Shown: one piece after another, positions 38,440 to 50,574 of the stretch
Position numbering within the stretch: position 1 is the stretch's first letter
Layout: every line of letters starts with the position of its first letter
Assembly: GCA_015501585.1 (NCBI GenBank)
Contig: JADNRY010000013.1
Span: forward strand, 1-64,000
Direction: 5' to 3'
Length of the DNA stretch: 64,000 nucleotides
From: Rhodocollybia butyracea
Taxonomy: Eukaryota; Basidiomycota; Agaricomycetes; Agaricales; Omphalotaceae
Position numbers and translations under genes: made by a program
The notes under the pieces: model-generated
Databases searched by the model: none
Told to the model about the DNA's origin: nothing
The model's input: the letters and a program-made list of their open reading frames with translations, nothing else

Positions 38440-39834
38440 ATGCGACTCCTTCGAACCACCAGTACAGACCCAGAGCTCGTCTATGTTGCAAATGAGAACA
38501 AGACACCAAAATATGCGATCCTCTTGCATGTATGGGGAGACAAGGAAGTGACATTCCAGTATGCAGGATCCATTGAAGAGAAAGGACATGAAAGGGTGGT
38601 CTAAGGTTGTGGGAGCATGCAAGCTGGCGCGCCGCAAGGATTGGGAGTACATCTGGATTGACACCTGCTGCATTGATAAGTCAAGTAGTTCCGAGCTCTC
38701 GGAGGCCATTAACTCGATGTACAGATATTACAGGAAATCCAAAGTTTGCTATGCTTACCTGTCGGATATGCAAAGTGACTGTCTCGGCCAGTCCTTCAAC
38801 TTGATGTTCTGGATGTGTAAATGGTTTACGAGAGGGTGGACACTGCAGGAGTTGATAGCGCCAACGAGAGTTTTCTTCTTCACAAATGACTGGGTGAAGA
38901 TTGGAATGAAGGCAAGCCTGCAAGAGACCATCACAGAGATTACTGGTATTCCATCATTGTTTCTGTTGGGGGCTGATCCGACTTGCCACAGCAGCATCGC
39001 GGCAAGAATGTCTTGGGCTGCTGGAAGGGAGACAACACATGTAGAAGACAGGGCATATTCACTGATGGGGGTCTTTGGTGTTCACATGCCGCCGCTTTAT
39101 GGCAAAGGAGAGCACGCCTTCTAAAGATGTCCACGAGTCTGGGTTATCCGCAGGTACTTGCAGGTATGACCGTGAGAATACTCGCAGGTATGTCTACCTG
39201 CGGATCCCGGTATCCGTTTCCCACGGATCCGTGCGGGTCACGGGTATTGATCCAAGGAAATTTGAGCTACCTGCAGGTACCTGCAAGTATTTGTGGGGAG
39301 GGCAAGAATAAAAATTTCCGCTCAAATAAGGGCTGGAATATGCTCTCCTCTATGCATTGGACCTTGTCTGAGTAGCTCATGTGTCCACCTAGCATGTAGC
39401 AAGTTACAAGTGGCTATATGCACTGTAGTACTATACAATCATGATGAATGTAGTCCCTCTTTAACTCCTGTGACTTGTATCAGTCAAGGACCACTGTTCT
39501 CCACCCACATCATGCTCTATTCTATGTACTAACAAGTATCTCACACTCATACCTTACATGTATAAGTACTAAATACTTGCAGGTACTCACAAGTCACTTG
39601 TGAGTACCTGTGTTGACTGGGATCTGCAAGTACCTGAAAGTACCCGCGTTAAAATACCTGCGGATCCTGGTATCCGTTTCCCACGGATCCGTGCGGGTCA
39701 TGGGTAGCCCCTTGAGGTCCACAGGTACCTGTGAAACGCATCCGGGTATACCTGGATCCGGACTCATGGACATCTTTAACACCTTCATCAGGCTACAGGA
39801 GGAGATTTTGAAGGTGTCCACAGATCACACCATC
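38440..39834 (+). pseudogene. HET-domain gene, frameshifted and interrupted twice
   Basis: HET domains are found in fungal incompatibility and cell-death regulators. ATG 38440 opens MRLLRTTST...YAILLHVWGDKEVTF, the usual N-terminus. Near 38553 the frame shifts, and the rest of the domain continues in another frame from about 38561: EYIWIDTCCIDKSSSSELSEA, FTRGWTLQELIAP, ITGIPSLFL, RMSWAAGRETTHVEDRAYSL, LYGKGEHAF. A 657-bp MITE (39122-39778) then interrupts it, and its own first bases provide a stop codon. The frame resumes as RLQEEILKVS at 39787 and is cut off at 39834 by the LTR of the Gypsy element. The 3' part of the gene is not found on the far side of that element. Clearly inactive. Confidence 0.88.
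39122..39778. mobile_element. hAT-like MITE, 657 bp, inside the HET gene
   Basis: Ends TAAAGATGTCCACGAGTC and, reversed, TAAAGATGTCCATGAGTC form terminal inverted repeats of about 20 bp. They are flanked by 8-bp duplications ACGCCTTC (39114-39121) and ACACCTTC (39779-39786), one mismatch apart, as expected of hAT transposition. Inside, a block with ccgtttcccacggatccgtg occurs twice in direct orientation (about 39205 and 39668). No coding capacity. Confidence 0.88.
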
Positions 39835-40034
39835 TGTAAGGCCTCTACGAGGCGTTGCTTAAATCACACGAGTGAACACAACAAGCTTTATAGCATGTAG
39901 TGTACCAGTATAAAAGAAGACTTACTTATGTAAGTCATACGGTATGCAGTATATAGAAAAATGAATATATGTGAATATAAAGAAATTAAATGGCGACGCA
40001 GCGCCTTAAGACCAGTAACGGCGTAGCCGTTACA
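39835..40034 (-). repeat. 3' LTR of the 10.6-kb Gypsy element
   Basis: 200 bp, containing small hairpins such as GCCTC-TAC-GAGGC, GACTTAC-TTAT-GTAAGTC and TAACGGC-GTA-GCCGTTA. It abuts the HET pseudogene. Confidence 0.93.
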
Positions 40035-40146
40035 CCCTCCCCCGCAAGACAAGCTTCGCAGAAGCGAGGCGATGATCTAGATGGATGGGAGACTCCAGCG
40101 TTGGCGTAACGCTGGGCGCCTCGAAGGTTGGCATAACCTTCAAGAC

Positions 40147-41571
40147 TCACGTCTCATCCATCTGCTGAACGGCTTCAGCGGACATAGGTGCTGCTTCGTT
40201 GGAAGGAGCGGTGGATGTAGCGGGCACTGCAGCAGAGGATGCAATGCTGGCTGAATTGTTTGCCACGACGGGGGTGGCGTTATGTGCAAACGACGTTGTT
40301 GTTGCGGATGTAGTTGGGGTAGCGACTGCCCCAGTGTTGCTTGAAGATGCTGTATTTGAAACAGCGTTGTTATGAATGTGTGCATTTATAACTTGTGCGG
40401 GGCCAGGAACAATTCCTACCCCAGGAACCCAGTAGTCTTTGTTGTACCCTAATGGTAGGCGTACATTTGAAGTGAAGCTAGCGCGTAACGCGTTAGTGGC
40501 GAATATTACGTCTGAGTTACTCGGTGCGTATGAATATACCCAGTTAGCAGCGTAAAATGCTGCGTCCTCGATGTCTGTGACCGTCAGTCCTTGTTCAGCG
40601 AAGAACATTGCCACAGACAGCATGGTGGCGTTGAACGAGTCGTCAAACGCGATTGGAGGGACAGGTGTCCCAGTAGCAATAGTAATTTGGCCACTAGTGA
40701 CCAAATTGTTATAATAGTTTGGCCGAAGTATAACTTCAGCCGCCAACAAATAATATCGCGCAGCGACATGAGGTGGCGTATTAGCAGGCATGGTTGGCCT
40801 GCGGGAGGTTACCAATATGCGTCCTCGAAGAGTACGCATACTGATAGCTCTATCAGAACGGCGCCGGTATACACCGGCTGAAGGAGTTTTAGCCCCAGAG
40901 GGGCTAGCAAGGTAAGCAGCCCATTCCTCAGGTGAGGACAGCCGCGTTGGATTGCGCACACTAGGCGCATTGATATTGGCAGTAGTGTCATAAGACCCTT
41001 CTACCACTATCTGCATCGGGGCTGGGGCTTTGCCCTTGCCTTTGTTTTTAGTCTTGCGTGGTTTCACGCTTGGATTGGCCGTATCGTCGTCGATATGAGC
41101 ATTGTCTCGCTCAAGTGGTTCTCGAGCTTCGCGTTCCGTGGCTGCTTCACGCACGAAATCAGCGATGAACCAATTTGTGGCAAGACAACGTTGCCATTCT
41201 GATCGCTCCGATGGATCGATCTTGTTCACTTCTCGCATTATACTTGCGAGGAGATGATGAATCCTCCATAGCCTACCGCGGGGTACGCCGCATCTCTGGG
41301 CTAGGGCAGGATCACAAAGGTACCTTAGGTACCAGATTACCTCCAACTGATTAGTTGGATTAAGTGCTTTTGTTGACTTGTCCATTTGGACAGATCGCGC
41401 ATTGGACACTGATATAGGGATGGGTAAACGACAATTGTCGTTTGCCTCGGCATTGTTGGCATCAATGCCATATCTAACCCAACGGTCAGACGCGAAGTAA
41501 CCACCGTCCTCCCTCCTATGAGGGAGAACTGGTAGTTCTGCAACGGGTCCAGGCGGATGTATCAACTGCAA
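40147..41571 (-). CDS. Gypsy accessory ORF B, 474 codons, unknown function
   Basis: This ORF lies between pol and the 3' LTR and overlaps accessory ORF A by about 55 nt in another frame, so the two may once have been one protein, or be linked by frameshifting. The N-terminal part is globular-looking (YFASDRWVRYGIDAN, WYLRYLCDPALAQRCG), followed by a basic stretch (KPRKTKNKGKGKAP) and an Ala/Thr/Ser/Asn-rich C-terminal tail. I see no signal peptide, membrane anchor or fusion peptide, so it is not an obvious envelope protein. No protease, polymerase or integrase motif is present. I do not recognise a family. Confidence 0.7.
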   Translation of the reverse strand: MQLIHPPGPVAELPVLPHRREDGGYFASDRWVRYGIDANNAEANDNCRLPIPISVSNARSVQMDKSTKALNPTNQLEVIWYLRYLCDPALAQRCGVPRGRLWRIHHLLASIMREVNKIDPSERSEWQRCLATNWFIADFVREAATEREAREPLERDNAHIDDDTANPSVKPRKTKNKGKGKAPAPMQIVVEGSYDTTANINAPSVRNPTRLSSPEEWAAYLASPSGAKTPSAGVYRRRSDRAISMRTLRGRILVTSRRPTMPANTPPHVAARYYLLAAEVILRPNYYNNLVTSGQITIATGTPVPPIAFDDSFNATMLSVAMFFAEQGLTVTDIEDAAFYAANWVYSYAPSNSDVIFATNALRASFTSNVRLPLGYNKDYWVPGVGIVPGPAQVINAHIHNNAVSNTASSSNTGAVATPTTSATTTSFAHNATPVVANNSASIASSAAVPATSTAPSNEAAPMSAEAVQQMDET

Positions 41572-42385
41572 CTGGTGCAGTCATGGGATCCTGGTCCATA
41601 GGTCCAGAATCATTGCCAGCGGGTTCATCTGCTGGGTATTCGCTCTCTTCTGAGGGCGATCGTTCGACACGACGACGCTTGCCGGACTGGCTTGCGTCTC
41701 TGTAATGAGGAGAGCCTTGACCGCGTTGAGAACTCTCTTCTTCTTGTCGGAGGTCATCGACCTCATCTCTTATTCTATCGTACTCTACTTGTAGAGCACA
41801 ATGATCTTGTAACAGATCGTCGTAGTCACGCTGCGTATCACGCAAGCGACGGTCGAGTTTATCGACGTCTCGTTTTGCGGCGCCTAGTTTCAAAGCTAGG
41901 TTGACCGCTGATTCAGCGTCTTCTTGCTGCAGAGCAGCAGGTGGGTTGATACTGTGCGCGTGATAACGCGCCAGATCTTCGCTAGCCGCCGTCCAACTTC
42001 GGTCGGCGTTACCAACGGCTTGTAAGCCGTGGTCTATGAAAGCCCTACATACAGGGCATGCGGGGCTAACCCCGTCCGCTCCATGTATTACGCAATGTAT
42101 GTTTGGATGGAATGTCCAGCCTACTTGTGATATTTGACTGGCGTAGCCAGTTGTAAGTGTAGGTTGTGCCATAGGCACACCATGATGCACGGTATTACCC
42201 GTCGCGTTGAATGCGGGCCCTTGCTGCGTTTGCAGCTGGGCAGGGAATGCGGAGTGGCGTGGTTCCGGTGGGTGCATGATGGCGTCGTTTGACCCATCGT
42301 TGTTGTTTTCGTCGCTTCGCGACGCGTCCTGACTGATTATAGCTCGTTTTACGGGCATTTTGTCTTTGGCGTTGCCAGAAGACAT
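41516..42385 (-). CDS. Gypsy accessory ORF A, 289 codons, zinc-binding and coiled-coil features
   Basis: It starts at ATG 42385 (MSSGNAKDKMPVKRA). A Cys/His cluster reads CVIHG...ACPVC, spacing C-x2-H-x8-C-x2-C, around residues 98-112, suggesting a small zinc-binding fold. A heptad-like, highly charged helix follows (about 165-220: LGAAKRDVDKLDRRLRD and onward), then a basic patch GKRRRVER that could be a nuclear localisation signal, and an acidic Pro/Ser-rich end. It lies 3' of pol and 5' of ORF B. A nucleic-acid-binding or assembly role is possible but is inference only. Confidence 0.7.
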   Translation of the reverse strand: MSSGNAKDKMPVKRAIISQDASRSDENNNDGSNDAIMHPPEPRHSAFPAQLQTQQGPAFNATGNTVHHGVPMAQPTLTTGYASQISQVGWTFHPNIHCVIHGADGVSPACPVCRAFIDHGLQAVGNADRSWTAASEDLARYHAHSINPPAALQQEDAESAVNLALKLGAAKRDVDKLDRRLRDTQRDYDDLLQDHCALQVEYDRIRDEVDDLRQEEESSQRGQGSPHYRDASQSGKRRRVERSPSEESEYPADEPAGNDSGPMDQDPMTAPVAVDTSAWTRCRTTSSPS

Positions 42386-42581
42386 GGTGGTCGAGAATTA
42401 AGGAAAAGTTGGAAAACATTCCTACTTTTATTAACCGGCCTCTGGCGAAGCGATCGGTTACAGTCATATTATGACACAGCCACTCATACATTGATCTTTA
42501 GATCAATGTATCCGATTTGGAAGTAATACTTCCTTGGAATTTAGGCGCTAGTTTGCATAGTAACTATGCAATTAGGCGCTG
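42386..42581 (-). other. pol-ORF A spacer, dense in palindromes
   Basis: Non-coding spacer holding several perfect inverted repeats, such as ATTGATC-TTTA-GATCAAT, TTGCATAG-TAA-CTATGCAA and GGAAGT-A-ATACTTCC, in the same style as the coding regions around it. Confidence 0.7.
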
Positions 42582-45500
42582 TTAAGTTTGTGTTCGCAGT
42601 AGATGACGCCAGTCATCTACTGCTTGTAGTTCTAGATATCTGTCTAGAGCTGTTAAATCCTTACAATTATTGTAAGTTTCGGTGGTAATATCGCCTAAGT
42701 TCCATTTGACTTGGAACATGAGTTTTCGACCATCCCAATGATGGTCGATTATCTCGTCAACGAGCCATTCCACAGTGGACGGTTCTCCGAAATCGTATGG
42801 TTCCGCAACGGAACGCATAGGGAATAGTGCATCATCATTCGGATGGTGCTTTCGCAATAGACTTGCGTGGAAGTTATTATGAATTCCACGCTTAGCCAAC
42901 TCCGTTGGCAGACCTACTCGATAATTCGAGGAATCTTCATGTACCTCAATAATGGGGTATGGTCCAATGAACTTGGGAAGTAGCTTAGATGCCCTCCCCC
43001 TCGGCAAGTTCAAATTTTTAGTCGAAAGATACACTAAATCATTTAGTTGAATCTCCGGCTCTTGTCGTCTACGCTGATTAGCGTGATAGACTTGATATAC
43101 ACGCGATTCTATAATCGCGTCGTGAGCATCTTGCAGGTGCTGTAATGCACGATCTGCAAATTCATGAACACCTGGTGGTGTTTGAGTACCGCTGGGTACT
43201 TCGCGAATCATGGAAGGCATGTACCCTCCATCGAGTTCAAAGGGTGCATACCCTGTGCTTTCGTTGATACTGGAGTTCAACGCGAACTCCATTAGTGGAC
43301 ATTTGTCCACCCAATTCTTCTGGTCGGCATTGACCATAGTGCGAAGAATTTGTCCAATGGACCTATTCACTCGCTCAGTAATTCCATCCGTTTGTGGATG
43401 GAACGAAGTAGACATTAGGAGCTTAGCTCCTAGTAAATGATGAACTTCACGCCACCAGCGTGAAGTAAACTTCGGGTCTCTATCAGAGACTATAGACTTC
43501 GGTAATCCGTGAAGTCTTACGATCTCTTTGACGTAGATCCATGATAACTGCGTTGCAGTTATTGTTGTTTTTACGGGTATTACATGTACCCGTGAAGTTA
43601 ATCGACAGATGACTACCCAGAGGTAGTCGTATCCTTGTGATTCAGGGAATGGACCAATGAAGTCCATTCCGATTGATTCCCATGGTTTCATGGGTATCGG
43701 TAGTGTATGTAGGAGGCCAGTTGGCATCCTATTAGTAGTTTTGGCGCGTTGACATTCAACGCATGCCTTACAAAATTCCTCGATGTTACCGTTGACCCTT
43801 GGCCACCAGTACCATCGGCGGATGTAATCGGAGGTTCGTTGACCTCCGAAGTGTCCTAATACTTCATGGGCTTGTTCGGCGATTATGCCTCTCAAGCTCT
43901 GTCCTTTAACAGTTTTACCGTTAGGAATGCAAAGAACTTTTTCTTTGCCTCGGTTTACAGTGTATATGAGGCCATTCTCGACTGAGAATGGCTTATGGTG
44001 CTCAGTATTATTGAGCACTTTTGAGAATAATGGATCATTAGCATAGCAACGCTTAATGTTCTTTATAAAATCATCCTTTTCGGCATGACTAGCAAGCGGT
44101 TCTTCACCTCTTGCGCGAGAGTTGAAGATAGTAATATCTTCTTCCGTAGTATCGGGAACAGGAACTGTTGGTTCCTTTTCTTTAACGGCAGATTGTAATT
44201 CTGCTGCTTCAGTGTCTCGAGCTTCTATAGTCTCGGCTACAGGATTTACTTGCTTCTTCTTTTGAAGAAGTCGAGCAGATCGACAAGTGTTCATGCTAGC
44301 GAGATGCTCGCTAACTAATTCTTCGATTCTTCCTTGTGGAAGGTCGTCTAGATTTCGGTCAATGCGAATATCTGCATTGACATATTCATGTGCCTCATGA
44401 TGTTCATTAGGCATGTCGGATTCGTAGTAACGCAATAACGCATCTGCTACTTTGTTCGTTATACCTTTGATATAACGAATATCAAAGTCAAATCTGGATA
44501 GATATTCCATCCAGCGTGCTTGACGACTTGAAAGCTTCCTTTGTGTAAGGAAGAATTCTAATGCTTTGTGGTCTGTGACCACATGTATACAATATCCAAG
44601 AACTTTATCTTCCCATTTGAGAAGAGCTTCGAGGATTGCAAGAGTCTCCAATTCAAAGACTCTATAATTATGTTGTGCAGCTGTGAATTTGCGCGACATA
44701 AATCCCGCAGGTCTACACGTCTGCCAAGTAGGGCCTTGGCCGTACATACTTCCGACTCCTGATACGGAGGCGTCACAGATAACCCATATAGGTTCATCTT
44801 TACTTGGATCAATTGGCTTCAGTATTGGAGCCTTTGATGCTAAACGTTTAATGTTTTGAAAACATACTTCGTGTGTTGGCATCCATACGAACGGAACATT
44901 GTTCCGTACCATAATTGAAAGTGGCCCAGTGAACTGGGCTACTTCGGGCATGTACGGTGCAATGTACTGTACAAGTCCCAGAAAGCGCTGTACATCATTG
45001 TACATGCGCGGGGTTCGCCATTCGCGAATTCTTGACATCTTATCGGTATCCGCATGGATACCTTTATCGTCGATGACATGCCCAAGGCAGTCTACAGACT
45101 CAGAGTAAAGTTCACACTTTGCTGCCCTTAGAAACAAGTGATGTTTCCTGAGTCGTTCTAGTACGTCTCTGACATGCTTTTCATGCTCTTTGAGTGTATT
45201 ACTAAAGACGAATATATCGTCTAAATAAGCATGGACATATCGTCCAATAGCGTCACGAAAGATATAGGTCATCAATCGTTGAAAAGTGGCGGGAGCGTTA
45301 CAGTCTCCCATCATCATGACATTGCTAACGAATGTCCCAAAGACGCATGCAAATGCAGTCTTCCATACATCTCCAGGCTCAGTTCGAGTCTGTTCGTATG
45401 CATCGCTGAGGTCGATTTTAGATCGATACTTGTGTTTGGCAACATCCGTACGGATGTTGTCTTGGTCTGGGAAAGGAGTTACATCCTTTACCGTGTTAGC

Positions 45501-46445
45501 ATTACGCTGACGATAGTCGATAATGGTACGAAGCGTACCATTTTTCTTTGGAATGCAAAGCATCGGAGCTGCTTGTGGAACAGCTTGTTGAATCCACCAG
45601 TTAGCACCGGTGTATTTCTCAAGCTTATCACTAAGCTGAGTCTTAAGATGATCTGGGCATCTTGGCATATAGTAGTTATACTTATGCTGTTCGTCAATGA
45701 GATTAATCCGATGATTAATTTCTCGAAATGGTGGGAGTACCGGTGGTACTCCTCCTAGGATGTCCATATGCTCGTGTATAATACGAGCGCGGAGCAACGG
45801 TATTTGCTCATCCGTATACGGACCTCGCTCTGGTAGAGCCGAGAAGTCCATAACGTCTTCCTCTTGGATGGCGTATAATTTTTCATGCTCATCGTCTGCA
45901 TGACCATGAGCGTAGAGTTCTTCAAACTCTATGTCGTCAAGTGGGAATTTCCACACCTTGACTCGAACGGGTCTCCTTCGTCTTTGATGAGAGATGGATC
46001 GAGATTTACTTCTCAATCCTTTTCGATTAGTACTCGTTTTAACTTGATCTTTAGATCTTGTTTGTCTCGAGTTAGTATTTGGGATAGCTATGTATTCATA
46101 GCTAATCCCTGTATCGTGATTATCCTGATTAGGATTATCGTTTGTTTCGTTGCCTGTTTGTTCAACCGGCATTGGTTGAGATATATTCTCTTCCATATCG
46201 CGCTGAGCTCTTAGCTCCGCTTGTTCCTCTATTTTGCGAGGAAAGTATTCTCTAGAGAATTCTTGTATGATTTCGACGTATTTATCGAAATCTTCTGCAG
46301 ATAACTCCTTTATTTTGGGCGAGGTTGAATTATCATCCTCGTCGTAGCTTTCCAGTACAACTGGGAAGTTATGAGGGAAGCTCCTCGCGGAGCGTTGCAT
46401 TTCAGACCGAAGATGTTCTTCGTCTACTATCGTCTCGATTTCCAC
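42582..46445 (-). CDS. Gypsy Pol: reverse transcriptase, RNase H, integrase, chromodomain-like end
   Basis: An uninterrupted 1287-codon ORF. The first 250 residues are a charged linker. Reverse transcriptase spans about 270-470 (PMLCIPKKNGTLR, IDYRQRN, KIDLSDAYEQ, active site AYLDDIFVF near 410). RNase H follows (WVICDASVSGVG, FELETLAILEAL, VTDHKALEFF, NKVADALLRYY). The integrase has an HHCC finger (HEVLGHFG...CKACVECQRAK) and a complete DDE core (GMDFIG, VSDRDPKF, QTDGITERVNR). The C-terminus (VEWLVDEIIDH, LMFQVKWNLGD) resembles a chromodomain with a shortened aromatic cage, which in chromoviruses guides insertion. The coding sequence carries a perfect inverted repeat every few tens of bases. 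Start at ATG 46445 is the first in frame. Confidence 0.92.
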   Translation of the reverse strand: MEIETIVDEEHLRSEMQRSARSFPHNFPVVLESYDEDDNSTSPKIKELSAEDFDKYVEIIQEFSREYFPRKIEEQAELRAQRDMEENISQPMPVEQTGNETNDNPNQDNHDTGISYEYIAIPNTNSRQTRSKDQVKTSTNRKGLRSKSRSISHQRRRRPVRVKVWKFPLDDIEFEELYAHGHADDEHEKLYAIQEEDVMDFSALPERGPYTDEQIPLLRARIIHEHMDILGGVPPVLPPFREINHRINLIDEQHKYNYYMPRCPDHLKTQLSDKLEKYTGANWWIQQAVPQAAPMLCIPKKNGTLRTIIDYRQRNANTVKDVTPFPDQDNIRTDVAKHKYRSKIDLSDAYEQTRTEPGDVWKTAFACVFGTFVSNVMMMGDCNAPATFQRLMTYIFRDAIGRYVHAYLDDIFVFSNTLKEHEKHVRDVLERLRKHHLFLRAAKCELYSESVDCLGHVIDDKGIHADTDKMSRIREWRTPRMYNDVQRFLGLVQYIAPYMPEVAQFTGPLSIMVRNNVPFVWMPTHEVCFQNIKRLASKAPILKPIDPSKDEPIWVICDASVSGVGSMYGQGPTWQTCRPAGFMSRKFTAAQHNYRVFELETLAILEALLKWEDKVLGYCIHVVTDHKALEFFLTQRKLSSRQARWMEYLSRFDFDIRYIKGITNKVADALLRYYESDMPNEHHEAHEYVNADIRIDRNLDDLPQGRIEELVSEHLASMNTCRSARLLQKKKQVNPVAETIEARDTEAAELQSAVKEKEPTVPVPDTTEEDITIFNSRARGEEPLASHAEKDDFIKNIKRCYANDPLFSKVLNNTEHHKPFSVENGLIYTVNRGKEKVLCIPNGKTVKGQSLRGIIAEQAHEVLGHFGGQRTSDYIRRWYWWPRVNGNIEEFCKACVECQRAKTTNRMPTGLLHTLPIPMKPWESIGMDFIGPFPESQGYDYLWVVICRLTSRVHVIPVKTTITATQLSWIYVKEIVRLHGLPKSIVSDRDPKFTSRWWREVHHLLGAKLLMSTSFHPQTDGITERVNRSIGQILRTMVNADQKNWVDKCPLMEFALNSSINESTGYAPFELDGGYMPSMIREVPSGTQTPPGVHEFADRALQHLQDAHDAIIESRVYQVYHANQRRRQEPEIQLNDLVYLSTKNLNLPRGRASKLLPKFIGPYPIIEVHEDSSNYRVGLPTELAKRGIHNNFHASLLRKHHPNDDALFPMRSVAEPYDFGEPSTVEWLVDEIIDHHWDGRKLMFQVKWNLGDITTETYNNCKDLTALDRYLELQAVDDWRHLLRTQT

Positions 46446-46579
46446 TGTGGATTTCGATTTACGCTCTGACTTCTTAGAAGTTGTAGCTGCAGCTAGTCAT
46501 TCTTTGCTAGCTTGAGTCTCGTTTCTTCTGAATTTCTCATTGAGAACTTCACGTTTCATTGCTGTGCGTCGAGAAAACT

Positions 46580-47932
46580 CTACCGCGTCCTCCCCACAGA
46601 AAGAGAAGGTGCTACCTTCCCTTTAATGCATATGGCATCTCTCTCGAAATCGAGTTTGATGCCGTGCTTACGCATAAATTGCGTACCGAGTATAGCGTCG
46701 TATCTATCGACATTAATAATGTCGTAGTATACTTTATCGTCTATACCTCCATAGGAGGTATGTACATTTGCGCCAAAATTAAATTTGGCTTTACTTCCTA
46801 CAGTTCCCAATTGTAGCGAATGTTGGTCCGCCAATTGGTGTACTTTGATGTTCGCTAATCGAACAAATGCGGGGCTTAAAGCCTCGATTGTGCAACCAGA
46901 GTCGAATAGCGTGAACGCTTCTACTCCTGCAATTTCAATGATTGCCGTCATAAGACGGCGATTTTGGATTGGACCTCGGTCAGGTCTGGTCATAAGTCTA
47001 CTAGACTTACGAATGCCTTCACCCGTATTGGTTTTAGGCTCTTCGTTGGGCGTGTTCATAGCCGCCATACGATCAGTGCCATCCAGTTGTATCTGGTGGC
47101 TTTGAGGATCTAGGGACAAGAACGTGTCATTGTCCCAGTCATCCTCTAGGCATACTGCCGGTCCACAGTCCTCTAGAGGATTGATTTCAATGTAAGGGTC
47201 ATGAATATGACCCAAGTACTCTTGGAAGTCGTCGTTGTCGTCATATAGTCGACCGACATATTCTTCTTCATATGTCTCAAGGAAGTATTCTCCTTCAGAC
47301 TCGTCCTCATCTTCATCCTCGTCGGGTTGAAGTGCTGGAGGATATTCAAGATCCTCTTCGAGGTTTTCTTGTGGATTGACTTCTTGACTAGCTGATTCCA
47401 GCTCGTCTTCCTGAATGGCGTACAATCGAGGTTGTCCATGCCTTTCGCACGTCGAGTCATTTGCGAAATGACCTGGCTTGCCGCAACGGAAGCATAGTTT
47501 CCTAGAAACTACTTCTTCTTTAGACGGTGTTTTCGACACTTGTCCTGTTCCACGGAAAGAGTTACCAAATTTAACTGGTCTCTTCCCTTTGCTAGTATAT
47601 TTTACTAACTGTACCCTTTGTTGGGTTTTTGGTACTGCTGCTGCAGTATACGTTCTAGCGGGAGGAGTACTTGCTCCTCGTTCCGCAATAGCGCGTTTTG
47701 CGACATATTTCGAGCTCGGTGTGCTCGTTTTTCGCTTGCCTGACACGTAGTAATCGTGTAGTGCGCGATTATCTTCAATGCAAGTAACCGCTTTGACGAT
47801 AGTCTTGAATTTCGCGTATTCAGGGATTATTCCCCTGTCTATAAGTATTTCAAGGATTGACATAGGCAATCCTTTAACGAAACGCATTTTCATATCATAT
47901 GAATGCGGTGGATGTTGCATTCTTGATGCCAT
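46580..47932 (-). CDS. Gypsy Gag C-terminal part, zinc knuckle and aspartic protease, 450 codons
   Basis: The frame begins next to the A75 tract; the true N-terminus was probably upstream. Residues 1-60 look like the end of a capsid domain (KMRFVKGLP, LHDYY). A single CCHC knuckle (CFRCGKPGHFANDSTC) lies near 150. A long acidic region follows, then a retroviral-type protease with TLFDSGCTIEALS near 350 and the flap-side DAILGTQFM near 425. It stops at 46580, and pol starts 135 nt later in another frame. Confidence 0.85.
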   Translation of the reverse strand: MASRMQHPPHSYDMKMRFVKGLPMSILEILIDRGIIPEYAKFKTIVKAVTCIEDNRALHDYYVSGKRKTSTPSSKYVAKRAIAERGASTPPARTYTAAAVPKTQQRVQLVKYTSKGKRPVKFGNSFRGTGQVSKTPSKEEVVSRKLCFRCGKPGHFANDSTCERHGQPRLYAIQEDELESASQEVNPQENLEEDLEYPPALQPDEDEDEDESEGEYFLETYEEEYVGRLYDDNDDFQEYLGHIHDPYIEINPLEDCGPAVCLEDDWDNDTFLSLDPQSHQIQLDGTDRMAAMNTPNEEPKTNTGEGIRKSSRLMTRPDRGPIQNRRLMTAIIEIAGVEAFTLFDSGCTIEALSPAFVRLANIKVHQLADQHSLQLGTVGSKAKFNFGANVHTSYGGIDDKVYYDIINVDRYDAILGTQFMRKHGIKLDFERDAICIKGKVAPSLSVGRTR

Positions 47933-47939
47933 TTACTAT

Positions 47940-47940
<1 letters not shown>

Positions 47941-48016
<76 letters not shown>

Positions 48017-48024
48017 TTTTTTTT
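47941..48024 (+). repeat. 75-base homopolymer T tract within Gypsy gag
   Basis: T75 at 47941-48015, one G, then T8. On the coding strand it is a poly(A) tract that would read as polylysine. It separates the gag frame ending here from the frame at 46580-47932. It may be an expanded microsatellite, an inserted poly(A) or an assembly artefact. Confidence 0.9.
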
Positions 48025-48840
48025 GCTATCATAGTGACTCGTGTGTACGAAATAAAGGACAATAGCACTTTCAAATACTCTACATGGATACCTTGTAGCT
48101 CTCGGTATGTACTTTGATATTCTTTACTCTCCAATGGAGGAAGTGCAGTGCCTACATGTTCATGTATCTGCTTTCTGTACACTTTGTGTACTTGGTGTTG
48201 CCACAGTTTGCGACGATCATCGTCTGCAGTTTTCGCTCGAAGTTGTGATGCTACTTTTCGTCGCATCTTCTTCTTCTTGCTATTACTGAATTTCTCATTA
48301 GGTTGGAGAATATCTCCAATCCACGATTCGTTTGACGAATCTGTGACATCCGAATCTGTATCATTTTGGGATGAATCATCATCCCATGGTGTGCTTCGAC
48401 AATTTTTATCGTTGTTGCGTTTGTGCTCATCTCCGCTGGAATCTGAGCTGTCATCACCGTCGTCGGGTGCTCCTGGAGCTCCTCTCGTAGGTGTTTTTTG
48501 AGGTGGTCCTCCCCCACTTTTAGAAGGACCTGCATCTTGCGCACTGTCTTGTTCGCGTATCCACACCTTTTCGGGTGTGTTGAATTTATCGACCGGAAGT
48601 CCATCCGTGTTGAACCCAACCATTTGGTCTGGGAAGAATTCCGAGGCTTTTCCGGTTTCTCGGAAGCTCTTATTGCGCAAGCGTTGCATCGCTACGCGAC
48701 TATCCCATTCGTAGGCTATGCCTGTGTCCGGGTCAGCGTCAACTTTAGTTGGTGCTTTTTCACCAGTTGTTACGACTGGGATGCTGTCATTACGGGTGTA
48801 TTCGTCTTGACATCGTTATTTTTTATGGCAGAGATTGACT
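48025..48840 (-). pseudogene. Gypsy Gag middle segment, frame-broken
   Basis: The minus frame reads TGIAYEWDSRVAMQRL near 48700, then an acidic Asp/Ser region, and KVYRKQIHEHVG near 48160, before entering the homopolymer. The frame differs from those on either side, so at least two shifts separate the gag pieces. Confidence 0.6.
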
Positions 48841-48963
48841 CTTCTGCCTTAATAACTACATTGTGGTTATTCAGTATGGGTTCTCTTTTCGGGAGATCCT
48901 TTGTTTTGTTCCTTTTAGGAACTTGCGTTGGCGTTTGGTTTAATCCAAATCGCTCTAGTAGTT

Positions 48964-50085
48964 CTACGATTGTATCGCTTTCGTTACCCGGATCTTCCGG
49001 GCTTTCTGTATTGTCTGTTTTGCTGGTGGGATCACCACGCTGAATGCTTCCATTTTAATGGTAGCTTTGTCGTCCACAAATGTGGACAATATATTTATGG
49101 GCGTTGACGGTGTCGCCAACACTCCGAATGCATTACGAATGTGATCCGTAAGTTGCGCCGCAGAGTCAGATATGATTTCTGGCTCTTCAAATATGAAGTC
49201 ATTCGACTTCGGTGTTGTAGCCCTGGATTTGGGCGGTATCGGGAGTGACCTCGGTCCTCTTGGTGCTGGAGAAGTTCTCCCAGTGGGACTTTGTCTCACT
49301 TTAGGCGTATATCCTGTTCCTGCAAGGAACGTAGGTGTCGGCGTATCTGGTAGCGATGACAGACGTCTTTGACGTGAGTCTGTATAGCCTCGCTGTGTTA
49401 TTAGCGATTTGCCTATTGTAGGAGGTAATTCTCCTACTTGTCCAAATCCCACATAGTTTCTATGTGTTATGGATGATGGACCTATTGCCTGCGATACATT
49501 GAGCATGGAATCTTTCCATTTTCCTGTCGAGGCGTTCGAGAACAGTGTATTCCTATAGATGTCCGGCACTACTGGCGGGCGTTCGTCCGGCAGTCTAGGT
49601 ACTGGCATGGCAATCCCAGTACGATCACTACTGTCTGTCGACTTTGTCGATGACTTGGACGAAGACTTCTCTTTGTCTTTTTCGTTTAATCGTGCATTCA
49701 ATTGATGCATTGCCGATGTGAATTCGCTCAGGGATTGCTGATTCGTTTCCGCGATTTTCAGCATATGCCCTGTAGCATTTACTAAGACCTGTGCAAGGTC
49801 TGTTATTGAATCCAGCGCTTTAGCTGCTTTCTCATTTATAGAGACATTGTCTCTTGGTTCTTTTATGGCAGTCATTTGACTGCCTTCTGATCGACTGTTG
49901 TTTTCAGTCGTCGTCGTAGGATTTTTTCCTTGCTGAGGTATTTCCTCTGTTAATTGTATGAGGAGCTTTTCAGGCTCACTCGTTTTTTCCTCTGACGGTT
50001 TGACCGTGTGGGAATCGTTCTGTGACGTGGCGTCCTTATTATCAGACGTGCGATTATTCGCTGTCTCTGGACTCGGTGAAGTCAT
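48964..50085 (-). CDS. Gypsy Gag N-terminal ORF, 373 codons
   Basis: ATG 50085 (MTSPSPETANNR) is the first ORF after the 5' LTR. The protein is hydrophilic and Ser/Thr/Pro-rich, with a helical segment at about 85-140 (ALDSITDLAQVLVNATGHM). The C-terminus reads IIPPAKQTIQKARKIRV. No knuckle is present in this part. Its place, size and composition fit a Gag N-terminal region, but I see no diagnostic domain. The coding DNA is again hairpin-dense. Confidence 0.65.
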   Translation of the reverse strand: MTSPSPETANNRTSDNKDATSQNDSHTVKPSEEKTSEPEKLLIQLTEEIPQQGKNPTTTTENNSRSEGSQMTAIKEPRDNVSINEKAAKALDSITDLAQVLVNATGHMLKIAETNQQSLSEFTSAMHQLNARLNEKDKEKSSSKSSTKSTDSSDRTGIAMPVPRLPDERPPVVPDIYRNTLFSNASTGKWKDSMLNVSQAIGPSSITHRNYVGFGQVGELPPTIGKSLITQRGYTDSRQRRLSSLPDTPTPTFLAGTGYTPKVRQSPTGRTSPAPRGPRSLPIPPKSRATTPKSNDFIFEEPEIISDSAAQLTDHIRNAFGVLATPSTPINILSTFVDDKATIKMEAFSVVIPPAKQTIQKARKIRVTKAIQS

Positions 50086-50259
50086 CTGAGCGTTTTAAAG
50101 GCTTAGAATGGAAGTGAATTTCTTAACAGAAGTTCTTAATGATCGAAAGAAGCTGATTGCGAGGATTTTTTGATGAATATGATTGATATTGTACTGCGTA
50201 CTGTATCTTTTACTTTTAAACAACGGTAAGCGTATAACGCTACTTGATGTTCAAAAAAG

Positions 50260-50459
50260 TGTAAGGCCTCTACGAGGCGTTGCTTAAATCACACGAGTGA
50301 ACACGACAAGCTTTATAGCATGTAGTGTACCAGTATAAAAGAAGACTTACTTATGTAAGTCATACGGTATGCAGTATATAGAAAATTGAATATATTTGAA
50401 TATAAAGAAATTAGATGGCGACGCAGCGCCTTAAGACCAGTAACGGCGTAGCCGTTACA
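50260..50459 (-). repeat. 5' LTR of the 10.6-kb Gypsy element
   Basis: 200 bp, about 98% identical to the copy at 39835-40034. It abuts minisatellite DNA rather than the missing part of the HET gene. Confidence 0.93.
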
Positions 50460-50574
50460 TGAAGCCTACTAGGTTCACCAACTATCCTCACTGCTGTAGC
50501 ATCTGTTGTAAGTACACTGACCATTCTCATGACTTTTCACACCCAGTAAGTGCACTGACCAACCTGGTCACTGG
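50460..50574. repeat. left part of a 77-bp minisatellite
   Basis: Units containing ctatcctcactgctgtag and ctgttgta match those at 58431-58690. The second Gypsy element inserted within this array. Confidence 0.8.

Follow-up and report, generated by a model that had tools for sequence, protein, structure and literature searches.

Saturation of a Ty3/Gypsy retrotransposon clade of Rhodocollybia butyracea with short, strictly Watson-Crick hairpins

The window considered here is a 64,000-nt stretch of genomic DNA (contig JADNRY010000013.1, positions 1 to 64,000) from Rhodocollybia butyracea, described in its genome report as a forest-litter decomposer (PMC8480192). Between positions 39,835 and 50,459, in reverse orientation, lies a Gypsy retrotransposon with long terminal repeats (LTRs) that is filled along its whole length with short perfect hairpins. 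This saturation is real and strong, and it stands out against both shuffled sequence and the remainder of the window. A sister element, located on the contig designated C659, represents a second subfamily and is used for comparison throughout. The features of the window element, including its open reading frames (ORFs) and the longest of its hairpins, are listed in order from the 5′ end, together with the domains of pol, which include reverse transcriptase (RT).

39835..50459, reverse strand: whole element, a hairpin-filled Gypsy with 143 perfect hairpins (stems of at least 6 bp, none overlapping)
50260..50459, reverse strand: 5′ LTR, 200 bp, TG...CA, 98% identical to the 3′ LTR (4 differences)
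50440-50458, 50391-50404 and 50344-50361, reverse strand: hairpins of the 5′ LTR
48964..50085, reverse strand: ORF1, 373 amino acids (aa), without a Pfam match; the sister has a 342-aa ORF in the same place
47895..48689, reverse strand: gag part, 264 aa, interrupted by a replacement that bears an A tract
47941..48024, reverse strand: A tract within gag, reading on the sense strand as 8 A, one C and 75 A
46580..47932, reverse strand: 450-aa ORF with a CCHC zinc knuckle above the cut-off and a weak aspartyl-protease match
42582..46445, reverse strand: pol, 1287 aa, with RT, RNase H, integrase and SH3_Tf2-1
45522..45542, reverse strand: 9-bp hairpin in pol
43971..43992, reverse strand: 9-bp hairpin in pol
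43646..43670, reverse strand: 9-bp hairpin in pol
43444..43466, reverse strand: 9-bp hairpin in pol
42596..42623, reverse strand: 12-bp stem with a 4-nt loop, the longest hairpin in coding DNA
42486..42511, reverse strand: 12-bp stem with a 2-nt loop, in the spacer 3′ of pol
41516..42385, reverse strand: accessory ORF, 289 aa, with a weak NUDE_C Pfam match under the cut-off
40147..41571, reverse strand: accessory ORF, 474 aa, without a Pfam match
39835..40034, reverse strand: 3′ LTR, 200 bp

Assignment to Gypsy, as in the first-pass annotation, is supported by the order of RT, RNase H and integrase within a single pol ORF (RVT_1 at residues 298-458, RT_RNaseH at 550-652, H2C2 at 849-903 and rve at 923-1017), by the CCHC motif and protease match upstream, the latter slightly below its cut-off (19.7 versus 20.3 bits), and by the LTRs, which run TGTAAC...TTACA. 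A domain search of the element found no chromodomain at the end of pol, the mark of chromoviruses; some protein homologs of pol do carry the chromodomain PF00385. The 5-bp sequences flanking the window copy (39830-39834 and 50460-50464) do not match as a target-site duplication, and this copy may therefore be a recombinant. Because a single copy can be recombinant, the unmatched flanks do not alter its membership in Gypsy.

Perfect inverted repeats with loops of 1-10 nt were counted across 39835-50459 and compared with 40 dinucleotide-preserving shuffles. There are 274 stems of at least 5 bp where 78.0 are expected, 151 of at least 6 bp (18.6 expected, standard deviation (sd) 4.1), 75 of at least 7 bp (4.6, sd 2.2), 32 of at least 8 bp (1.3) and 10 of at least 9 bp (0.2). 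The 5-bp class amounts to 25.8 stems per kb, or one per 39 bp, in agreement with the spacing of about 30-40 bp that had been estimated by eye. All 12 hairpins singled out in the first-pass annotation occur at the positions given for them, and only two of their stem lengths required correction: the first is 12 bp (42596-42623), and that at 42726-42748 is 9 bp. It had also been remarked that Copia coding DNA lacks the pattern, and the two Copia regions of the window indeed contain 6-bp stems at 1.16 and 1.06 times expectation. The ratio in five other stretches is 0.55-1.58, a range that encloses all seven controls, so that the density in the element resembles neither its shuffles nor the other elements of the window. 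Mild elevations are seen at 1-14.5 kb (44 6-bp stems versus 30.2, sd 6.3) and at 36.0-39.8 kb (14 versus 8.8, sd 2.8), and in a 1-kb track the density of 7-bp stems drops to background beyond the boundaries of the element.

The hairpins are compact. Loops of 0-12 nt are in excess, with a maximum at 3-4 nt, and no excess of stems is found in the element for loops of 13-100 nt. When loops of up to 30 nt are admitted, 229 of 328 hairpins span 14-21 nt. Stems and loops of the non-overlapping set make up 24% of the DNA, and their placement is clustered rather than regular (coefficient of variation of spacing 0.91, versus 0.75 ± 0.06 for random placement). Coding and non-coding portions are populated to a similar degree: in the window element and its sister together, which contain a small non-coding sample of 2,492 bases, the respective densities are 14.0 and 12.4 per kb for stems of at least 6 bp, 7.5 and 8.0 for at least 7 bp, and 3.5 and 4.4 for 8 bp. 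At the scale of small RNAs, 16-20.5% of 22-mers in the elements have a minimum free energy of -5 or lower, compared with 4-6% in one shuffle of each (an excess of 3.5- to 3.9-fold) and 4.4-6.8% in three stretches taken elsewhere in the window.

Many of these hairpins lie within protein-coding sequence, and in pol alone 70 perfect stems reach 6 bp or more. When synonymous codons are permuted without altering the protein, the 41 pol stems of at least 7 bp fall to 3.9. At this same length the other reading frames give 6 versus 0.6 (ORF1), 10 versus 1.2 (the 450-aa protease-containing ORF) and 8 versus 0.8 (the 474-aa ORF). The signal is weaker in gag (3 versus 0.6, a value that shuffles also reach; 8 versus 2.0 at 6 bp) and in the 289-aa ORF (1 versus 0.5; 11 versus 2.0 at 6 bp). 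Across 120 homologs, conservation is similar for residues encoded by stems and for the remainder (0.544 versus 0.533; 0.552 versus 0.544 for the sister). The frame relation in which two constrained codon positions meet in most pairs is the one used least among 7-bp stems (46 of 210 placements, longer stems entering more than once), although this share exceeds what feasible synonymous placements would give (386 of 3,482). The hairpins are thus written mainly through synonymous sites, with amino-acid changes perhaps helping. The wording of the protein itself was also examined for compatibility with hairpins of 8-9 bp, for which the sister pol stands 1.8-2.0 sd, and the window pol 0.2-0.7 sd, above the average homolog; as a marker of saturation in homologs this measure was dropped, since the window pol is average and the sister and a Copia of the window are both high.

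The trait is not peculiar to one insertion. A search of the R. butyracea genome (95.6 Mb, 1381 contigs) returned at least 58 matches to pol, with pieces counted singly, and 30 loci were taken from these (L004-L033, which include the window copy and in some cases are pieces of one insertion). Stems of at least 7 bp occur in these loci, flanks included, at 3.6-9.2 per kb. Two subfamilies can be distinguished, with 11 and 19 loci and 77% identity to each other in pol DNA. The sister element is about 10,910 bp long with an LTR of about 256 bp that starts with TG and ends with TA; it has a similar ORF order and is flanked on both sides by GTAAT. Its stems number 147 at 6 bp or more, 87 at 7 bp or more and 18 at 9 bp or more, where 19.1, 4.8 and 0.2 are expected, so that both subfamilies are about equally saturated and the feature spans the family, as had been supposed. 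By comparison, 30 other Gypsy loci of the genome, taken as the top matches by RNase H domain, with several copies of one family among them, have 6-bp ratios of 0.59-2.18. Because these other Gypsies sit near background, the saturation is, as far as this genome shows, a trait of one Gypsy clade. A mild 6-bp excess of 1.7- to 2.2-fold is seen at L061-L064, L003 and L068, which may be weak forms of the trait or chance; L068, a relative at 39% amino-acid identity, has a ratio of 1.88.

These comparisons also bear on whether the pattern could be a product of chance, composition, alignment or assembly, an idea that they refute. The 75-nt A tract may be responsible for an excess of mirror and direct repeats in the window copy, whereas the hairpins exceed both dinucleotide and codon shuffles, recur at loci on many contigs, and are equally abundant in a sister that is only 77% alike in pol while other Gypsies remain near background.

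Among proteins there are 856 relatives of pol at E ≤ 0.001, and among the best 120, which were examined, amino-acid identity is 52-62% with one exception at 82%, the JGI protein P0001. The few organisms named among these 120 are Phanerochaete, Mycena, Phlebia and Trametes. P0001 is 97% identical to the sister pol (L007, L008), and by its sequence the sister element, or one very near it, appears to be present in another sample. No DNA of relatives was confirmed among viral contigs. Three distant Gypsies in bacterial metagenome-assembled genomes, which are probably contamination, have 6-bp ratios of 1.4-2.0.

Several features of the window copy are best described beside its relatives. In gag it has 127 nt where the copy on C507 carries 288 bp, and about 30 nt of unmatched sequence precede the A tract; over the stretch read, neither the C507 copy nor the sister contains 9 or more consecutive A residues. 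The A tract resembles the tail of a further insertion or a scar left by repair. Both accessory ORFs 3′ of pol occur in both subfamilies without a Pfam family above the cut-off. The 289-aa ORF has a Cys/His-rich patch, recognized by eye, in common with the sister, and the 474-aa ORF has at least three relatives in the protein collection, two of them named Rhodocollybia butyracea; a structure predicted for the latter was discarded as meaningless (mean pLDDT, the predictor's own confidence measure, of 31). CpG dinucleotides have decayed to TG or CA in family copies among L005-L033, and TGA codons interrupt many reading frames, as methylation-linked mutation would predict.

The first-pass annotation had proposed, as one meaning of the hairpins, an ordered RNA structure on the scale of the genome. 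Folding energies agree with the structural part of this proposal. In 150-nt windows the mean z-score relative to dinucleotide shuffles is about -4 across the element (-4.1 on the sense and -3.6 on the antisense strand; -3.9 on each strand of the sister), compared with about 0 for the Copias. For 350-nt fragments, the sense energy differs from that of shuffles by 39.5% and 43.0% in the two elements and the antisense energy by 29.1% and 32.2%. The corresponding values are 37.4% and 28.3% in two further family copies, -2.8% to 10.6% at nine other Gypsy loci, and -0.1% and 1.1% in the Copias. One interpretation is that the structure serves the sense genomic RNA only, being under collective selection for compaction, packaging, stability or concealment, as in persistent RNA viruses. 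In its favor are the large sense energy difference, the richness of sense-strand loops in A, and the turnover of hairpin positions at a maintained density (see below), which recalls the coronaviruses as they are described in PMC7642675. Arguing against it, the antisense strand folds nearly as well, no loop sequence of 3-4 nt occurs more than six times per element, and G-U makes up about half as large a share of predicted pairs as it does in shuffles (0.058 versus 0.100 and 0.048 versus 0.092).

The avoidance of G-U pairs is evident in the stems themselves, and is an informative property because a structure in sense RNA should spare G-U, a criterion that is our own rather than one drawn from the papers cited. 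Among helices with one mismatch, pooled from both elements, G-U occurs 25 times where 5.7 are expected and A-C 44 times where 9.2 are expected, enrichments of 4.4 and 4.8 that are accompanied by T-T (4.7), A-A (3.5), A-G (3.1) and the others (1.4-1.8). Codon wobble positions flanked on each side by at least three Watson-Crick pairs give the same picture: opposite G, the choice is C 39 times and T 9; opposite T, A 47 times and G once; opposite A, T 57 times and C 6; and opposite C, G 28 times and A 17, against a background of C 1437 and T 1650, and of A 1832 and G 972. With two flanking pairs the respective counts are C 136 and T 37, A 150 and G 9, T 217 and C 31, and G 117 and A 54. This synonymous choice agrees with the codon shuffles, and together they uphold the earlier suggestion that codon choice has been bent to a nucleic-acid structure. 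Finally, single changes between the subfamilies produce G-U 17 times versus 28.8 expected and A-C 27 times versus 43.8 in one direction, and 24 versus 30.9 and 28 versus 36.4, respectively, in the other.

The stems are therefore strictly Watson-Crick, with G-U shunned as firmly as an A-C mismatch. Since G-U fares no better than A-C in any of the three tests, a structure in sense RNA fits badly, and the avoidance points to a cause that acts on both strands or at the level of DNA. The low folding energy thus stands while the plain sense-RNA interpretation does not fare well, and we regard it as unlikely.

Comparison of the subfamilies indicates how the pairing is maintained. Pair-keeping double changes number 22 versus 5.7 expected and 16 versus 4.8 under a model of independence that corrects for CpG as well as for codon position and base; with rates taken outside stems, the expectations become 9.4 and 9.2. 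Double changes that break a pair number 12 versus 8.4 and 9 versus 6.4. The search for compensatory change recommended in the first-pass annotation is thus positive between the two subfamilies. A control with partners slid along the sequence was dropped, as slid pairs are not Watson-Crick at the start. Individual hairpins are replaced readily: among 62 pol stems of at least 6 bp, 58 are fully comparable with the sister, where 15 are intact, 21 have lost one pair, 7 two, and 15 three or more. With so few intact at an equal density, many hairpins must turn over as the density stays. Stems diverge less between subfamilies (ratio 0.61-0.66), which was not accepted as proving that constraint continues, since close copies do likewise (0.31-1.10 in 22 comparisons) and intact pairing itself reveals the ancestral base.

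Among close copies, by contrast with the subfamilies, pair-keeping double changes were rejected as covariation, being mostly CpG decay, for which counts are near expectation (27 versus 22.3 pair-keeping; 4 versus 2.3 pair-breaking). At non-CpG sites there are 5 pair-keeping double changes (4 unique) versus 1.1 expected, and 0 pair-breaking versus 0.9. Paired CpGs in other copies show 20 unique pair-keeping double decays, 25 pair-breaking and 3 other. This uncoordinated decay in copies resting in the chromosome implies that the pairing is upheld in the replicating lineage; the force acts there, and not in chromosome-resident copies.

The main rival to selection, which is taken up below, is copy-correction. 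During reverse transcription the nascent strand could fold back and copy its own first arm, converting mismatches to Watson-Crick pairs, so that chance seeds of 4-5 bp would grow and the hairpins would be by-products of the enzyme. Template-switch correction of imperfect palindromes is known from E. coli, phage T4 and yeast, as recounted in PMC7202029. Such copy-correction would account for pairs that are exclusively Watson-Crick, for covariation, for the indifference between G-U and A-C and for action in replication only, without requiring that each of some 140 hairpins be under strong selection. The non-CpG double changes in close copies are in its favor, as are two hints that amino acids have moved too, namely the overuse of the most constrained frame relation and the hairpin-compatible wording of the sister pol at the upper end of its homologs. 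Likewise, 3′ arms look more conserved than 5′ arms in comparison with P0001 (0.88 versus 0.80).

Other observations weigh against copying. Arm polarity relative to the 120 homologs is not significant (p 0.79 and 0.21), and neither the codon usage nor the composition of the arms shows a clear polarity. Differences are not gathered in one arm (same-arm 35 versus different-arm 53, and 29 versus 38), a comparison of weak power at 24% divergence. The 191 substitution clusters in close copies are mixed, the longer hairpin being in the reference in 87, in the other copy in 50 and of equal length in both in 54, and no plainly rewritten arm is found among the 24 clusters listed. Non-coding sequence, as given above, is not clearly denser than coding sequence. 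Apparent gains on one arm in L030 (same-arm 12 versus different-arm 2 with the window element as outgroup; 19 versus 12 with L066) would favor templated copying, but were attributed to probable misalignment, because identity is 78% in the alignment used and about 95% by BLAST. As L030 and L066 are both members of the sister subfamily, they leave no outgroup. The template-switching process raised in the first-pass annotation is accordingly retained as a rival, with neither arm clustering (in a comparison that has weak power and no outgroup) nor significant polarity nor a clear non-coding excess to its credit, and we consider it possible, though less likely than not.

The explanation that we tentatively favor is that the hairpins are selected to form in both strands. 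In this proposal, a clade of Ty3/Gypsy elements would maintain short perfect hairpins at about 14 per kb over the whole element during replication, with selection favoring compact local hairpins in both the genomic RNA and its complement, be that cDNA or antisense RNA. A requirement on both strands is invoked because G-U and A-C would be equally harmful in that case alone. Moreover, coding DNA has far fewer permitted places for hairpins, so that its parity with non-coding DNA weighs against runaway copying and suits a target density better. The putative pay-off is shielding from the RNA silencing of the host: the hairpins fit within a small RNA of 20-22 nt, and conceivably both a target site and the small RNA derived from it would fold upon themselves. 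The spans of 14-21 nt and the self-folding 22-mers fit, but do not show, such protection.

A number of observations weigh against selection on both strands. Acting on about 140 hairpins simultaneously, selection must be strong per base pair, and yet single-sided pair-breaking changes are common between subfamilies (90 of 413 pairs), which makes many hairpins individually dispensable. Relative to shuffles, the sense strand gains somewhat more folding energy, and its loops are rich in A and poor in G, both of which hint at a role for that strand. The covariation is observed between a single pair of subfamilies, the pooled hairpin counts are not fully independent because the two elements share hairpins partly by descent, and one-mismatch ratios in the window element alone scatter at small counts (2.4-12.5 for G-U and 2.8-8.3 for A-C). 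All of the evidence is drawn from one genome.

Similar comparisons can be made with known systems. Relatives among the Ty3/Gypsy elements of Agaricomycetes share a pol with RT, RNase H, an H2C2 integrase and a Tf2-1-like SH3 domain; the comparison is at the level of protein, and the hairpin saturation of its DNA may set the element apart. In yeast Ty1 and Ty3, chemical probing assigns up to 30% of the genomic RNA to stable, highly structured regions, and local structure is likewise dispersed along an LTR retrotransposon RNA; saturation by perfect hairpins is not mentioned in the accessible part of that report (PMC11381356). RNA viruses with genome-scale ordered structure, as presented in PMC7642675, have hundreds of stem-loops across the genome, folding energies under those of shuffles and poorly conserved pairings. 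Their energy differences are about 15% in SARS-CoV-2 and 7.5-10.7% in HCV, with a maximum of 23.4%, compared with about 40% in the element, where fragments were likewise 350 nt but with wider steps and a ratio of means. The element differs from the viruses so described in having Watson-Crick pairs only and an antisense strand that is nearly as structured. Quasipalindrome template switching similarly makes imperfect inverted repeats more perfect, but is portrayed in PMC7202029 as hotspots in replicating DNA rather than saturation of a whole element, and the block rewriting of an arm is not seen here. A search of the open-access literature found no LTR family with hairpin saturation. A survey of inverted repeats in 118,019 genomes (PMC13155455) would miss most hairpins of the element, because arms of at least 10 bp are required in the survey as outlined there.

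Overall, the notion that a retroelement lineage has made its genome into a string of self-complementary segments, each about 14-21 nt long and folding in both strands, through copy-correction by RT or through evasion of silencing, strikes us as close to evenly balanced. To our knowledge, there is no clearer case of a coding genome in which Watson-Crick pairing holds the synonymous sites over the full length. Many copies of varied age lie beside ordinary Gypsies in one genome, which makes a comparison of lineages possible, and whether genome-wide structure originates in selection or in a copying bias becomes testable through lineages, small RNAs and the behavior of the RT. If the proposal is true, the family would be either a genome that makes itself palindromic through its RT or an element that putatively blinds RNA silencing through small RNAs that fold upon themselves.

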